Made by a program: the position numbers and the translations under genes. A DNA stretch of 64,000 nt from Acidobacteriota bacterium (GTDB taxonomy: Bacteria; Acidobacteriota; Vicinamibacteria; Vicinamibacterales; UBA2999), in the NCBI GenBank assembly GCA_018000455.1, contig JAGNJW010000027.1:1-64000 (forward strand), given 5' to 3'. Positions 1,091 to 6,960 of this stretch are shown piece by piece (positions within the stretch are counted from its first letter, which is position 1; every line of letters starts with the position of its first letter). Below the pieces are notes generated by a model. The model saw only the letters and a program-made list of their open reading frames with translations. It did no database searches and was not told the origin of the DNA.

Positions 1091-1573
1091 TTACCAGCGC
1101 TGGCGTTCCCCGGCCCACCACACCGCGACCACCGTCGTGGCCAGCAGTACCGTCGCCGTGATGACGACCGGCGCCTGGCCTCGCAGGCGCCCGACGAGGC
1201 TCTCGAGCTGCCCGGCGGCCAGGCGGGATACTTCGGCCGGGTCGGCCACCGCGCCGAGGAGCCAGAGGAAGCTTCCTGCACCGGCCACGATGAAGACGAG
1301 GCTCGCAGCGAGCGCGATGTTGAAGCCCCAGTCGACCACCACCTCGTGACGCCAGGCGTCCTGGCGGACGCGGCTGGCGACCTGGGCGGCGAAATGCGGA
1401 GGCGGCACGGCAACCGGCCAGTCGGCGAGTACCCGGTCGATACGCCGCGCCAGCGCCAGACGCGCCTGACAGGCGGCGCAGCCGTCGAGGTGCGCGGCCA
1501 TGTCGGGCCCGAGCCTGCCGCCGCTGGCCGTTTCCTCGACGACGGCATCGATGCTGGCGCACGAGTTGGTCAT
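1091..1573 (-). CDS. Anti-sigma factor with ZAS-type zinc motif and two membrane helices
   Basis: A 160-residue protein that should bind and hold the sigma factor encoded just upstream. The N-terminal cytosolic part has the zinc-binding anti-sigma signature H28-x3-C32-x2-C35 (AHLDGCAAC). Two hydrophobic segments follow: one around residues 85-110 (NIALAASLVFIVAGAG) and one near the C-terminus (VVITATVLLATTVVAVWW). The start at 1573 overlaps the sigma stop codon by 4 bases (ATGA), and the length suits a small two-helix anti-sigma factor. The signal it senses cannot be read from sequence. Confidence 0.85.
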   Translation of the reverse strand: MTNSCASIDAVVEETASGGRLGPDMAAHLDGCAACQARLALARRIDRVLADWPVAVPPPHFAAQVASRVRQDAWRHEVVVDWGFNIALAASLVFIVAGAGSFLWLLGAVADPAEVSRLAAGQLESLVGRLRGQAPVVITATVLLATTVVAVWWAGERQRW

Positions 1574-2112
1574 GCCAGATCGCCCTCGAGCGCCTGCCGC
1601 AGCAGCCGCTTGGCACGGAAGAGGTGCGTCTTCACCGTGCCGATGGGTAGGCCGAATGTCGCGGCGAGATCTTCGTACTTCACGCCCTTTACGTAGTGTC
1701 CGTGCACGAGCACCCGGTAGTGCTCGGGCAGGCGGGCCATGGCCTTGTCGAGTCGATCGCGCAGTTCTACATCGGAGAAGGCGGGGTCGCCGACGCCGGG
1801 CGCGGGCGCCGCGTGGTCGTCGTCGAGCGACTGGTCCTGGAAGCGTTCCTTGCCGCGCGCTTCGAAGGCCACGTTCGAGGCGATGCGGTAGATCCACGTG
1901 GCCAGCGACGACGCGCCCCGGAAGTGGGGGAGGCCGCGGTGGACGCGCAGGAACGCGTCCTGCGCGATGTCTTCCGCTCGCAAGGGCGGGCGCACGAGGC
2001 GTGAGGCGAGCGCGAACACCATCGGCGAATACCTGTCCACCAAGTCCCGGAACGCCGCCTCTTCTCCCCGGCGGCAGCGCGCCACCAGATTTCGTTCGTC
2101 CACCTCCGGCAT
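1570..2112 (-). CDS. RNA polymerase ECF sigma factor (RpoE-like)
   Basis: A 180-residue ECF sigma factor. Region 2 is clear (RAEDIAQDAFLRVHRGL, then the TWIYRIASNVAFE region 2.4), and region 4 has the helix-turn-helix YEDLAATFGLPIGTVKTHLFRAK. It drives a subset of promoters and is presumably held by the anti-sigma factor translated from the overlapping downstream gene. The ATG at 2112 was chosen over a GTG at 2157 because the GTG lies inside the -35 element of a strong candidate ECF promoter (2127-2156), so a transcript from it could not contain the GTG. GGTGAG just before the ATG can serve as a weak ribosome site. Autoregulation is likely from the promoter arrangement. Confidence 0.92.
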   Translation of the reverse strand: MPEVDERNLVARCRRGEEAAFRDLVDRYSPMVFALASRLVRPPLRAEDIAQDAFLRVHRGLPHFRGASSLATWIYRIASNVAFEARGKERFQDQSLDDDHAAPAPGVGDPAFSDVELRDRLDKAMARLPEHYRVLVHGHYVKGVKYEDLAATFGLPIGTVKTHLFRAKRLLRQALEGDLA

Positions 2113-2126
2113 GCGCTCACCGCCAT

Positions 2127-2156
2127 TAGACTCGGGTCCGGGGCCGGATTGTTTCA
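2127..2156 (-). promoter_or_regulatory. ECF-type promoter of the sigma/anti-sigma/dam operon
   Basis: On the minus strand TGAAAC (2156-2151) is followed after exactly 18 bases by AGTCTA (2132-2127). The same pair with the same spacing stands on the opposite strand at 2169-2198, and the match continues past each hexamer (TGAAACAATCCG and AGTCTAA in both). TGAAAC is a known -35 class for ECF sigma factors such as B. subtilis SigW. The -10 ends 14 bases before the ATG at 2112. Confidence 0.7.
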
Positions 2157-2168
2157 CCAGCCAGGGCC

Positions 2169-2198
2169 TGAAACAATCCGCCCGGCGCGGCCAGTCTA
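2169..2198 (+). promoter_or_regulatory. Matching divergent ECF-type promoter of the 2223 gene
   Basis: TGAAAC at 2169-2174 and AGTCTA at 2193-2198, spacer 18, is a near copy of the promoter on the other strand. The two -35 regions face each other and form an 11-bp perfect inverted repeat (GGATTGTTTCA and TGAAACAATCC). The gene start at 2223 lies 24 bases after the -10. Confidence 0.7.
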
Positions 2199-2222
2199 AG
2201 CCCGCAGACGGAGGACGCCACG

Positions 2223-2636
2223 GTGAGTGATTACGGGTTCTATACGGCCATGCTGTTTTTGCCGGCGCTCGTCATCGTCGGCGGATTCGTCCTGCTCTGG
2301 ATGACCGTGACGCGCGGCTTCAAGCAGGCAGAGTTTCGCCACAAGGAACGGATGGCGATGATCGAGCGGGGTCTGACCCCGCCCGATCCGGTGCTCGGTG
2401 ACCCGACGCTGCGGCGGGCCCACGGCTTCAAGATGACGCTCGGCATCCTGATGTGCGGGCTGGGGCTCGCCTTGTTCATGCTCATCGGGTTCGCCAGCGG
2501 CGAGCCGGGCATCGCTTTCGGCGTGGGCGGTGCGTGCGTGATGCTCGGCCTGGCGCTCGTCGTGAGCGCCTTCAACACCAAGCGGGAAGCGCGTGAGGCC
2601 GAGACGCGCTTCCCGGAGCCGCCGCGCCTGCCCTAG
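2223..2636 (+). CDS. Small two-part membrane protein (DUF6249-like), divergent from the ECF operon
   Basis: 137 residues with an N-terminal membrane helix (MLFLPALVIVGGFVLLWM), a short cytoplasmic stretch rich in charged residues (EFRHKERMAMIERGL), and two further hydrophobic segments (MTLGILMCGLGLALFMLIGF and IAFGVGGACVMLGLALVV). The charged HKERMAMIERG segment is typical of DUF6249-type membrane proteins found beside ECF sigma factors in Acidobacteria. The function is unknown. It starts with GTG and is preceded by GGAGG. The promoter is a mirror copy of the one in front of the sigma gene, so it is probably a member of the same regulon. This is the only visible target besides the sigma operon itself. 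Confidence 0.8.
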   Translation: MSDYGFYTAMLFLPALVIVGGFVLLWMTVTRGFKQAEFRHKERMAMIERGLTPPDPVLGDPTLRRAHGFKMTLGILMCGLGLALFMLIGFASGEPGIAFGVGGACVMLGLALVVSAFNTKREAREAETRFPEPPRLP

Positions 2637-3538: not shown

Positions 3539-4348
3539 GTGACGGGCGAAGGAACCGGCCGGACGGCCCTCGTGACCGGCGCCTCGGCCGGTATTGGCAA
3601 GGCCTTCGCCGAGGTGCTGGCCGAGCGCGGTTATGGCCTGGTGCTCACGGCGCGCCGCGCCGACCGGCTGCAGGCCGTGGCGGTCGACCTCGGCATCCGT
3701 TTCGGGGTGCCGATCACGGTGCACGCGGCCGACCTGGCGGATCCAGCAGCGCCGGCCGACCTCGTGGCCGCGCTCGAGGCGCGCGGCCTGCACGTCGACG
3801 TCCTCGTGAACAACGCCGGCTATGGCGTGCCCGGGCGCTACGGTGCCGCCGACTGGACCCGGCAACGCGACTTCATACAGGTGCTCGTCGTGGCCGTCGC
3901 CGAGCTGACCCATCGCCTGCTGCCGGGCATGCTCGCGCGTCACTGGGGCCGCGTCGTCAACATCGCGTCGCTCGCCGCGCTCGTGCCGGCGGCGCCCGGC
4001 CACACGCTGTACGCAGCGTCGAAGGCGTTTCTCGTGAAGTTCTCCGAGGCGCTCGCTGGCGAATGCGTGCCCGACGGCGTGCACGTGACCGCGGTGTGCC
4101 CAGGCTTCACCTACTCGGAGTTCCATGACGTGACCGGCACGCGCGTCCAAGTCAGCGCCATGCCGCGGTGGATGTGGAGCGACGCCCGCGACGTTGCGCT
4201 GCAGGGCTACGCCGCCGCCATGGCGGGCACTCCCGTGGCCGTGACGGGCCGCGTCAACCGCGCGATCGCACTCGGCGTCAGGCATCTGCCGTCGGTCGTC
4301 ACGAACGCGGCCGTGCGGCGCACCGCCCGGAACTTCCGCAAGCTGTAG
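3539..4348 (+). CDS. Short-chain dehydrogenase/reductase
   Basis: 269 residues, classical SDR fold, NAD(P)-dependent oxidoreductase. The cofactor motif TGASAGIG is at about residues 13-20, the structural NNAGYG in the first half, the catalytic Ser in NIASLA and the catalytic pair in YAASK. The C-terminal third (CPGFTYSEFH) is typical of the family. GTG at 3539 is chosen because the frame upstream is shadow sequence and a TATACT hexamer sits 6 bases before it. Neighbours give no pathway, so the substrate stays open; SDRs of this subclass often act on acyl chains or keto groups. Confidence 0.88.
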   Translation: MTGEGTGRTALVTGASAGIGKAFAEVLAERGYGLVLTARRADRLQAVAVDLGIRFGVPITVHAADLADPAAPADLVAALEARGLHVDVLVNNAGYGVPGRYGAADWTRQRDFIQVLVVAVAELTHRLLPGMLARHWGRVVNIASLAALVPAAPGHTLYAASKAFLVKFSEALAGECVPDGVHVTAVCPGFTYSEFHDVTGTRVQVSAMPRWMWSDARDVALQGYAAAMAGTPVAVTGRVNRAIALGVRHLPSVVTNAAVRRTARNFRKL

Positions 4349-4438
4349 CCCTGCCGCTATCCCGCTGTCTCCTGCATTCTCCCGCCGCGAACTTCCGCCG
4401 CCGGCACTCGTATGACTCAGGCAGGCCGGCATCCCGGT

Positions 4439-4482
4439 CAGGCCGCTGACGACGGACATTCAGGCCGCTGAGGACGGACATG
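4439..4482 (+). repeat. 22-bp imperfect tandem repeat ending in the start codon of the permease gene
   Basis: Two adjacent 22-base units (4439-4460 and 4461-4482) begin CAGGCCGCTGA and end in GACGGACAT(T/G). They differ at two positions. The second unit supplies the ATG of the permease gene, while the first has ATT at the same place. GAGGACGG in the second copy can act as ribosome site. Confidence 0.85.
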
Positions 4483-6960
4483 TTCGAATCGCTGACCAAG
4501 GATCTGGTCTACGCCGGGCGGACGATCCGTCGCAGTCCCGGGTTCTTCGCCGTCGCGGTGCTGTCGCTCGGCCTGGGCGTCGGTGCGAACACGGCGATGT
4601 TCTCGCTCGTGGATGCGCTGCTCTTCCGGCCGTTACCCGTCCACGACCCTGGTACCATGGTCGACGTCTTCACGACCCACGGCGACGAGGTCGCCACGTC
4701 GTCGTATGCCGACTACCTCGACCTCAAGGCCCAGAACACGGTCTTCGCCGCCATGACCGGCTACAGCCCGATGATGGCGCCGCTGGCCCTCGGCGATCGT
4801 TCGCGCGTGGCCCTCGGCCAGATCGTGACCGGCAACCACTTCACGGTGCTCGGCGTGCAGCCCGCCCTTGGCCGCCTCCTGGCGCCGGCCGACGACGTGC
4901 CCGGCGCCGAACGCGTCGTCGTGCTGTCGGATCGGATGTGGCGGCGTGAGTACGGCGCCGACCCGGCCATCGTCGGACGCCCGATCACGCTGCGGGGCCT
5001 CGTCTACAGCGTGGCCGGGGTGGCCCCGCCGTCGTTCACCGGCGTCGTGCCGCTGCTGACACCCGAACTCTGGCTGACGATGGCCCACGCCGAGGAGGTG
5101 GACCCGATCGGCATCACCAACAACGTGCCGGGCCCGGGACAGACCCGGCTCGAACGCCGCGGTGCGCGCTGGATGTTCATCAAGGGACGTCTCAAGGACG
5201 GCGCCACGCCGGCCCAGGCGCAGGCCAACGTCGCGCTCATCAGCCAGCAACTGGCCACCGCCTATCCGCAGACCAACAAGGACTCGCGGATGTCGGCCGT
5301 CGCCAGCGAAGATGTCCGGTTGCTCGTGCCGCAGGCAGGCGGCGTGCTCTCGGTGGGCGCGGCGGGCGTGATGGCGATCGTCGGCCTCGTGCTGCTCATC
5401 GCCTGCGCCAACGTCGCCGGCATGCTGCTGGCGCGCGCCACGGCCCGGCGCAAGGAGATCAGCGTGCGGCTCGCGGTGGGCGCCAGCCGCGGCCGCCTGA
5501 TCCAGCAGCTGCTCGTCGAGGGCCTCGTGCTCGGCGTCGTCGGCGCGGCGGCCGCCGTGGCCTCGGCCTGGGCCCTCATCCGCGGCCTGCTGCCGGTCGA
5601 GCTGCCGTTGCCAGTCGACGTCGCTCTCGACCTCAGGCTCGATGCCCGGGTGCTCGGCTTCACGCTGGCGGTGGGGGTCGTCACGGGCCTGCTGGCCAGC
5701 CTGTTGCCGGCGCTCAAGGCCTCGCGGCCGAACGTGGTCGGCGACCTGCGCGGCGAGGCTCCGGTGGCGCGGGTGGGCGGACGGCGCTGGGCCCTCGGCG
5801 ACGGCCTCGTCGTGGCCCAGGTGGCGCCCACCGCGGTGCTGCTCGTCGTGGCCGGCCTGCTCCTGCGCAGCCTCGGCGCCTCCGAGCGGGCCGAGGTCGG
5901 CTTCAATCCGCGCGGGCTGGCCGCGGTGGCCTTCGACACCGACATGATGCGCTACGAGCCGGAGCGTGGGCTCGAGTTCTGGCGCGCGGCCCTGGCCCGC
6001 ATCTCGGCGCTGCCCGAGGTCGCCCTGGCGGCCACGGTCACGCCGACCCTGCCGTTCACCGTCAATTTCAGCCAGCAGGAGATGAAGATCGACAACCGCA
6101 CCTACGTCGAAGGGCAGCGCGGCGAGACGATCGAGAACGTGGCCGTTTCGCCCGGCTACCTCGCGACGCTCGGCGCCCGGCTGGTCGAGGGCCGCGACTT
6201 CGGCACCGCCGACACCGACGGCGCTCCCGGTGTGGCCATCGTCAACCAGACCATGGCCGCGCGCTTCTGGCCGGGGGAGTCGGCCCTCGGTCACACCATC
6301 ACGAGTGTGACCAGCGGACACACCTACCGCGTCGTTGGCGTCAACGCCGACCACAAGCAGCATGGCGTGCTGGAGCGGCCGGCGCCGTTCGTCTACTTTG
6401 CGGCGACGCAGCGACCGAGCCGCTACAACTTCCTGGTCGCCCGTACGAGCGGCGACGCCTCGGGTCTGGTTGCGTCGATGCGACGTGAATTGCTGGCGCT
6501 CGATCCGGGCCTGGTCGTGATGGATGCCGGCACGATGGAATCGCACATGGCGGCCGCGCTCCTGCCGGCGCGAGTCGGGGCACTGCTAGCCGGTGCCTTC
6601 GGCGGTCTCGGCACGTTGCTGGCGGCGATCGGCCTCTATGGCGTCGTCGCCTTCTCGGTGGGGCGGCGCACGAAGGAGATCGGACTGCGGATGGCGCTTG
6701 GTGCCGAGCCGTCGGGCGTGCTTGCCATGGTGATGGGCCAGGGCTTCACGCTGGTGGTGGTGGGCCTGGCCCTCGGCGCCGGGCTGGCGGCCGCTGTTGC
6801 CAGCCTGCTGCGCGGGCTGCTCTACGGCATCTCGCCACTCGATCCCGTGGCCTGGGGTGCCGCCACGGGAGTCATGCTCGTCGCCGCGCTCGGGGCCAAC
6901 GCGGTGCCGGCCCGCCGCGCCATGCGGGTCGAGCCGCTGACGGCGTTGCGCACCGACTGA
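4480..6960 (+). CDS. ADOP-type duplicated MacB/FtsX permease
   Basis: 826 residues, built of two consecutive MacB_PCD plus FtsX units. The first unit has an N-terminal helix (FFAVAVLSLGLGVGANTAMFSLVDALLF), a periplasmic core and three helices near residues 290-410. The second repeats the plan and ends with the FtsX block containing RTKEIGLRMALGAEPSG. The final PARRAMRVEPLTALR is the family signature. The duplicated architecture without an ATPase domain is the Acidobacterial duplicated orphan permease family. No ATP-binding partner is adjacent, so its energy source and cargo are unknown. The start codon is part of a tandem repeat. Confidence 0.93.
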   Translation: MFESLTKDLVYAGRTIRRSPGFFAVAVLSLGLGVGANTAMFSLVDALLFRPLPVHDPGTMVDVFTTHGDEVATSSYADYLDLKAQNTVFAAMTGYSPMMAPLALGDRSRVALGQIVTGNHFTVLGVQPALGRLLAPADDVPGAERVVVLSDRMWRREYGADPAIVGRPITLRGLVYSVAGVAPPSFTGVVPLLTPELWLTMAHAEEVDPIGITNNVPGPGQTRLERRGARWMFIKGRLKDGATPAQAQANVALISQQLATAYPQTNKDSRMSAVASEDVRLLVPQAGGVLSVGAAGVMAIVGLVLLIACANVAGMLLARATARRKEISVRLAVGASRGRLIQQLLVEGLVLGVVGAAAAVASAWALIRGLLPVELPLPVDVALDLRLDARVLGFTLAVGVVTGLLASLLPALKASRPNVVGDLRGEAPVARVGGRRWALGDGLVVAQVAPTAVLLVVAGLLLRSLGASERAEVGFNPRGLAAVAFDTDMMRYEPERGLEFWRAALARISALPEVALAATVTPTLPFTVNFSQQEMKIDNRTYVEGQRGETIENVAVSPGYLATLGARLVEGRDFGTADTDGAPGVAIVNQTMAARFWPGESALGHTITSVTSGHTYRVVGVNADHKQHGVLERPAPFVYFAATQRPSRYNFLVARTSGDASGLVASMRRELLALDPGLVVMDAGTMESHMAAALLPARVGALLAGAFGGLGTLLAAIGLYGVVAFSVGRRTKEIGLRMALGAEPSGVLAMVMGQGFTLVVVGLALGAGLAAAVASLLRGLLYGISPLDPVAWGAATGVMLVAALGANAVPARRAMRVEPLTALRTD

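Follow-up and report, generated by a model that had tools for sequence, protein, structure and literature searches.

Mirror-image predicted ECF promoters between a sigma/anti-sigma operon and a divergent DUF6249 gene, conserved in Acidobacteriota and found in two Bacteroidota records

Genes and predicted promoters at the locus

The stretch of DNA analysed here (64,000 nucleotides from an Acidobacteriota bacterium of the order Vicinamibacterales, hereafter the window) contains an ECF sigma factor gene followed by an anti-sigma factor gene on the minus strand and, divergent from them, a gene for a small membrane protein of the family DUF6249. Between them, an interval of 74 bp carries two predicted promoters in mirror image (Table 1).

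Table 1. Genes and predicted regulatory features of the locus (positions in the window)
Feature	Position	Strand	Details
Anti-sigma factor gene	1091..1573	-	160 aa; HLDGCAAC (Hx3Cx2C) zinc-type motif, then two hydrophobic segments
ECF sigma factor gene	1570..2112	-	180 aa; ATG start 2112; Sigma70_r2 E 4.6e-16, Sigma70_r4_2 E 5.8e-13
Predicted autoregulatory ECF promoter	2126..2156	-	-35 TGAAAC 2156-2151; -10 AGTCTAA 2132-2126; spacer 18
12-bp perfect inverted repeat of the two -35 regions	2145..2180	.	arms 2145-2156 and 2169-2180; gap 2157-2168 (12 bp)
Predicted divergent ECF promoter, DUF6249 gene	2169..2199	+	-35 TGAAAC 2169-2174; -10 AGTCTAA 2193-2199; spacer 18
DUF6249 membrane protein gene	2223..2636	+	137 aa; PF19762 E 2e-10

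The sigma factor has the composition of an ECF (group IV) factor, i.e. regions 2 and 4 only, joined by a short linker: PF04542 and PF08281 were found at residues 39-103 and 134-186 of a 195-aa sigma frame, and the domain search of this frame returned no sigma domain beyond these two regions. Its start codon, which an initial annotation of this DNA had regarded as fixed, is supported at 2112 both by ortholog alignment, which puts it at MPEVDERNLVARCR, and by the position of the upstream GTG at 2157, which abuts the -35 box. The stop codon of the sigma gene overlaps the start of the anti-sigma gene (ATGA). The product of this overlapping downstream frame matches an NCBIfam anti-sigma model weakly (E 4.5e-4, below the cut-off) and possesses the other features of a co-encoded anti-sigma factor, namely hydrophobic segments and the motif HLDGCAAC, which conforms to the Hx3Cx2C signature of class I (zinc type) anti-sigma domains. 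The same signature was seen in 11 of the extracted ortholog anti-sigma frames; the ortholog protein comparison left out the anti-sigma frames of loci L022, L034, L033 and L038 and the DUF6249 frame of L036. The DUF6249 protein scores 41 bits against the Pfam gathering cut-off of 33 (PF19762), and hydropathy and alignment indicate three hydrophobic segments, the first being followed by a conserved RHKERMAMIERGL motif. A second DUF6249 gene of the window genome (G000:C11:261418-261708; L108) is immediately followed by another ECF-like sigma gene of the same orientation, and the mirror promoter pair is absent there.

The minus-strand site at 2156-2127 reads TGAAACAATCCGGCCCCGGACCCGAGTCTA and the plus-strand site at 2169-2198 reads TGAAACAATCCGCCCGGCGCGGCCAGTCTA, with AGTCTAA running on to 2126 and 2199, respectively. 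The back-to-back occurrence of TGAAAC-N18-AGTCTAA on both strands, as originally described, is therefore exact (2126-2156 on the minus and 2169-2199 on the plus strand). The palindrome formed by the two -35 regions is perfect, as had been claimed, but measures 12 bp instead of the 11 bp given, with CGGATTGTTTCA (2145-2156) and TGAAACAATCCG (2169-2180) as its arms. Such symmetry had been judged unlikely by chance, and first-order Markov resamplings of positions 2000-2300 bear this out: the longest inverted repeat had a mean length of 6.8 bp and reached 12 bp in none of 400. With up to two mismatches allowed, the two mirror sites are the only matches in the window, where 0.49 would be expected by chance, and at least two such sites arose in 9 of 100 shuffles of the window. 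In the whole 5.19 Mb genome, exact N18 sites are confined to the mirror pair.

Conservation within the order and beyond

Orthologous divergent loci were found by searching with the DUF6249 and sigma proteins, and 17 genomes of the Vicinamibacterales provided a complete intergenic region. Both half-sites are kept in all 17, and left and right spacers are equal in every locus, being 17/17 in 16 of them and 18/18 in the window; the pair has thus passed the comparison of orthologous intergenic regions by which the initial annotation proposed to judge it. The consensus offered there holds for the conserved pair and fails for its N18, as the family spacer is N17 and the window is the exception. Because the spacer is N17 elsewhere, a scan of 40 relatives with the N18 pattern came back nearly empty, with a single unrelated match (G039:C40). 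Among 30 aligned half-sites the only near-invariant columns are TGAAACAA and TCTAAT. The -10 box of the sigma side reads G[CT]TCTAAT in most orthologs, without the G of GTC, and that of the DUF6249 side AGTCTAAT or GGTCTAA.

Of 162 genomes of the order, 17 yielded pairs with the compound pattern TTAGA-N17-21-GTTTC-N0-30-GAAACA, which gave one stray match besides (G086); the reversed control gave 3 matches. Sixteen of the 17 are orthologous loci, and G064 has its pair at a contig end, with the genes beyond view; the module genome G080 was missed, its gap exceeding the pattern limit.

Several peculiarities were observed within the order. Both window promoters have 18-base spacers, as opposed to 17 bases in all order orthologs and in a further site of the window genome upstream of an ADOP permease gene (see below), which may reflect a concerted change or the copying of one arm. 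Locus L109 (G044:C6, about 4240-5020) lacks the sigma gene together with most of the intergenic region, and its anti-sigma frame runs straight into AGTCTAA of the DUF6249 promoter, owing either to a natural deletion or to an assembly fault. The distribution is patchy, as neither DUF6249 nor a close sigma ortholog was detected in the four other genomes of the same genus (G001-G004).

The wider set of loci was drawn from PF19762 matches across the phylum and from two Bacteroidota records, the only loci reached by a search for related loci with the DUF6249 protein; one is titled Chitinophagaceae, and the other is assigned by its content, as it carries closely related copies of the same genes. The divergent sigma/DUF6249 layout with a mirror pair also occurs in other families of the phylum and in the two Bacteroidota records, with boxes that agree between left and right -35 within each locus and differ between clades: TGAAACTT..TCTAAC with spacers 16/16 in family f24, TGAAACCG..CGTCCAAG in f19, a -35 box TGCAACC in f42 and TGTAACC..CGTCATA in the Bacteroidota loci. 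In a permutation of sides among few groups (seven), four of which had their sites first found on the assumption of a spacer of 17, the observed left-right similarity of the -35 boxes was reached in 2 of 5040 permutations and that of -35 plus -10 boxes in 1 of 5040. At L050 the more similar left/right pair was taken where a choice existed. Spacer pairs are 16/16, 17/17 or 18/18 and never mixed, and the test of spacers alone is weak (120 of 5040). A relaxed scan, with spacers of 13-21, returned 17/17 for f19, f42 and f48. The boxes of the two Bacteroidota loci fell outside its -10 pattern, so that their sites rest on the first search. The persistence of the pair across the order, through the phylum and into Bacteroidota supports the earlier proposal that the DUF6249 gene is a likely direct target.

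The association of the family with ECF factors extends to loci of other arrangement. In 39 of 49 loci the DUF6249 gene has an ECF sigma gene no more than 1.5 kb away, compared with 0 of 30 control loci; since 19 of the 49 are order loci that were chosen as relatives of the window DUF6249, the phylum sample (22 of 30) gives the fairer figure. The sigma gene is sometimes divergent and sometimes in the same direction, and the association suggests that DUF6249 has a role in ECF signalling beyond that of a single output.

Further candidate sites and alternative readings

A sequence-only half-site model gave its two top ranks to the mirror pair in each of the 17 module genomes, with 150 candidates scored per genome and with most module sites having helped to build it. 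It found no match in 7 genomes without a complete module, and it missed existing ADOP sites in three of these, so that it shows the scarcity of other sites and not their absence. In four family genomes, that of the window among them, its further matches precede the ATG of an ADOP-type (MacB/FtsX) permease gene by 7-9 nt; these genes are orthologous and share 62-93% identity. Such permeases in the gene content agree with an origin of the window in the Acidobacteriota. The only other good site of the window genome is of this kind (G000:C21:61207-61235; L149, L153), at a distance of 8 nt from the start codon of an unlinked gene. The exact pattern TGAAACA-N17/18-GTCTA has 21 matches in 43 family genomes versus 2 for the reversed control, and its three matches in the window genome are the mirror pair and the ADOP site.

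The ADOP site is present in five of five family genomes with the module, in G045 (where the DUF6249 gene sits at the edge of a contig) and also in G005, G044 and G046, where no ortholog of the locus sigma is detectable; it is absent at the permease gene in G004 and G054. The permease gene is accordingly only a candidate third target, predicted from its upstream sequence: its site occurs where the sigma ortholog is undetected, which makes its reader uncertain, and another sigma factor may read sites similar to the mirror promoters. At L179 (G042:C156) the permease gene is apparently truncated just past its first codons, which are retained along with the ADOP promoter. Three half-site matches were set aside, two inside open frames (G078:C278, G079:C41) and one without a proper -10 (G055:C139). 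The two-mismatch N18 matches of the window genome were likewise rejected as targets, none of the 17 loci tested (L004-L020) being near a sigma gene of the locus type.

If the promoters were real and read mainly by another ECF sigma factor, the locus being only one of its targets, this would account for the same promoter being kept ahead of the ADOP permease gene in G005, G044 and G046, genomes that hold many ECF factors. We nevertheless regard this as improbable, because the motif varies together with the clade to which the adjacent sigma locus belongs and few other good sites occur in module genomes. A widespread ECF paralog was rejected as the reader of the mirror sites, its own upstream motif (GGGAACTTTC...TTCTAA) being different. 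Upstream of this paralog (L168-L173, L175) the sequence GGGAAC[CT]TTC...GGTTCTAA is conserved and is likely its own promoter.

The 12-bp perfect arms, which exceed chance and reach past the usual -35 hexamer, could also suggest that a dimeric transcription factor controls both genes, with the palindrome TTGTTTCA-N-TGAAACAA as its operator. This is less probable still, and is largely refuted by the gap separating the -35 boxes, which ranges from 1 to 36 bp across orthologs and is incompatible with one dimer. Moreover, TCTAA boxes stand at a fixed distance outside each arm, a single half-site with its -10 occurs before the ADOP permease, and among the locus genes no transcription-factor gene was seen except the sigma itself. 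A fixed promoter geometry around a freely varying central gap argues for two outward promoters, not for one dyad operator. Least credible is an RNA hairpin, a terminator or a recent inverted duplication without promoter function: a recent arm copy would give arms as unusually identical as those of the window (12 bp, both spacers 18, both AGTCTAA), but the pair is order-wide, its spacers have diverged and only promoter-like columns are conserved, so that copying may account for the additional identity of the window arms and not for the conserved pair.

Proposed circuit and known systems

We thus consider it highly probable, judging from sequence comparison, that the 74-bp interval represents two independent outward promoters read by the adjacent ECF sigma factor, which would provide positive autoregulation together with a divergent target, DUF6249. 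The regulatory link from the sigma factor to its own operon and to the DUF6249 gene is very likely real. Sequence comparison establishes the two sites, how they are conserved and change in concert, and how scarce other sites are, whereas the adjacent sigma as their reader, control in the positive direction, an envelope signal and what DUF6249 does are inferred. An ECF-type promoter sequence lies upstream of the sigma gene in all 17 loci, from which autoregulation is predicted. The mirror symmetry would arise from one sigma factor recognising the same -35/-10 pair on either strand, and not from a dimeric protein on a palindrome. At rest, the membrane-anchored zinc-type anti-sigma factor would hold the sigma factor; an envelope signal would free it, and the sigma-RNA polymerase would fire in both directions and raise sigma, anti-sigma and DUF6249 protein together.

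In the orthologs the two promoters probably differ in strength, as the -10 box of the sigma side differs from that of the DUF6249 side; to judge by the -10 boxes of known ECF promoters, the feedback promoter, without the G of GTC in most orthologs, may be the weaker one. The sigma ATG lies about 12-17 nt past the -10 box in most orthologs, a distance short enough to imply a sigma leader of only a few bases. A gap of 1 bp probably leaves no room for two polymerases at the same time; the longer gaps elsewhere indicate that such exclusion is not required.

More tentatively, DUF6249 could be a membrane co-regulator of the sigma/anti-sigma pair, in a three-gene feedback circuit kept from Acidobacteriota to Bacteroidota, whose mirror promoters and sigma factor would have co-evolved through several specificities with spacers of 16, 17 and 18; this is a possibility that we rate well below even. 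If true, it would provide a natural series from which ECF promoter recognition could be decoded. A literature search for DUF6249 returned, as the only paper naming the family, a plant kinase study.

The locus provides a well-supported predicted promoter for an ECF group of which no description was found, and it ties the uncharacterised family DUF6249 to ECF signalling in two phyla. It also supplies promoter pairs that changed together: with two independent sites per locus for probably one sigma factor, spacer and -35 preferences become readable by comparison and can be related to the sigma protein, an aid to the prediction or engineering of ECF specificity. The literature searched, with the main ECF classification outside its scope, yielded no description of the window instance, of the depth of its conservation or of the co-varying promoters.

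Bacillus SigW-type promoters (TGAAAC-N16-CGTA) share the TGAAAC -35 box with the window, whereas spacer, -10 box (AGTCTAA) and host phylum differ. The general features of autoregulated ECF sigma/anti-sigma operons have been reviewed (PMC8103513, PMC7406223). With systems of the RpoE-RseA and SigW-RsiW type, the window locus shares a two-domain sigma factor, a co-encoded membrane anti-sigma factor (here with Hx3Cx2C) and an AAC-type -35 with a GTC-type -10 in the sigma factor's own promoter. It differs from them by an additional mirror promoter for the divergent DUF6249 gene, the pair being conserved as a unit, and by the few other candidate targets found for its sigma factor.

The kind of circuit is already known: a divergent pair has been documented at the EcfG-NepR / PhyR locus of Alphaproteobacteria, where a sigma/anti-sigma operon and a divergent gene are both expressed from promoters of the same sigma factor (PMC8103513). 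The window locus has the same arrangement, with same-sigma promoters predicted on both sides. By contrast, the divergent gene there encodes the regulator PhyR, whereas in the window it is no PhyR-type response regulator but a small DUF6249 membrane protein with three hydrophobic segments, and the anti-sigma factor opposite it is of the zinc-motif membrane type.
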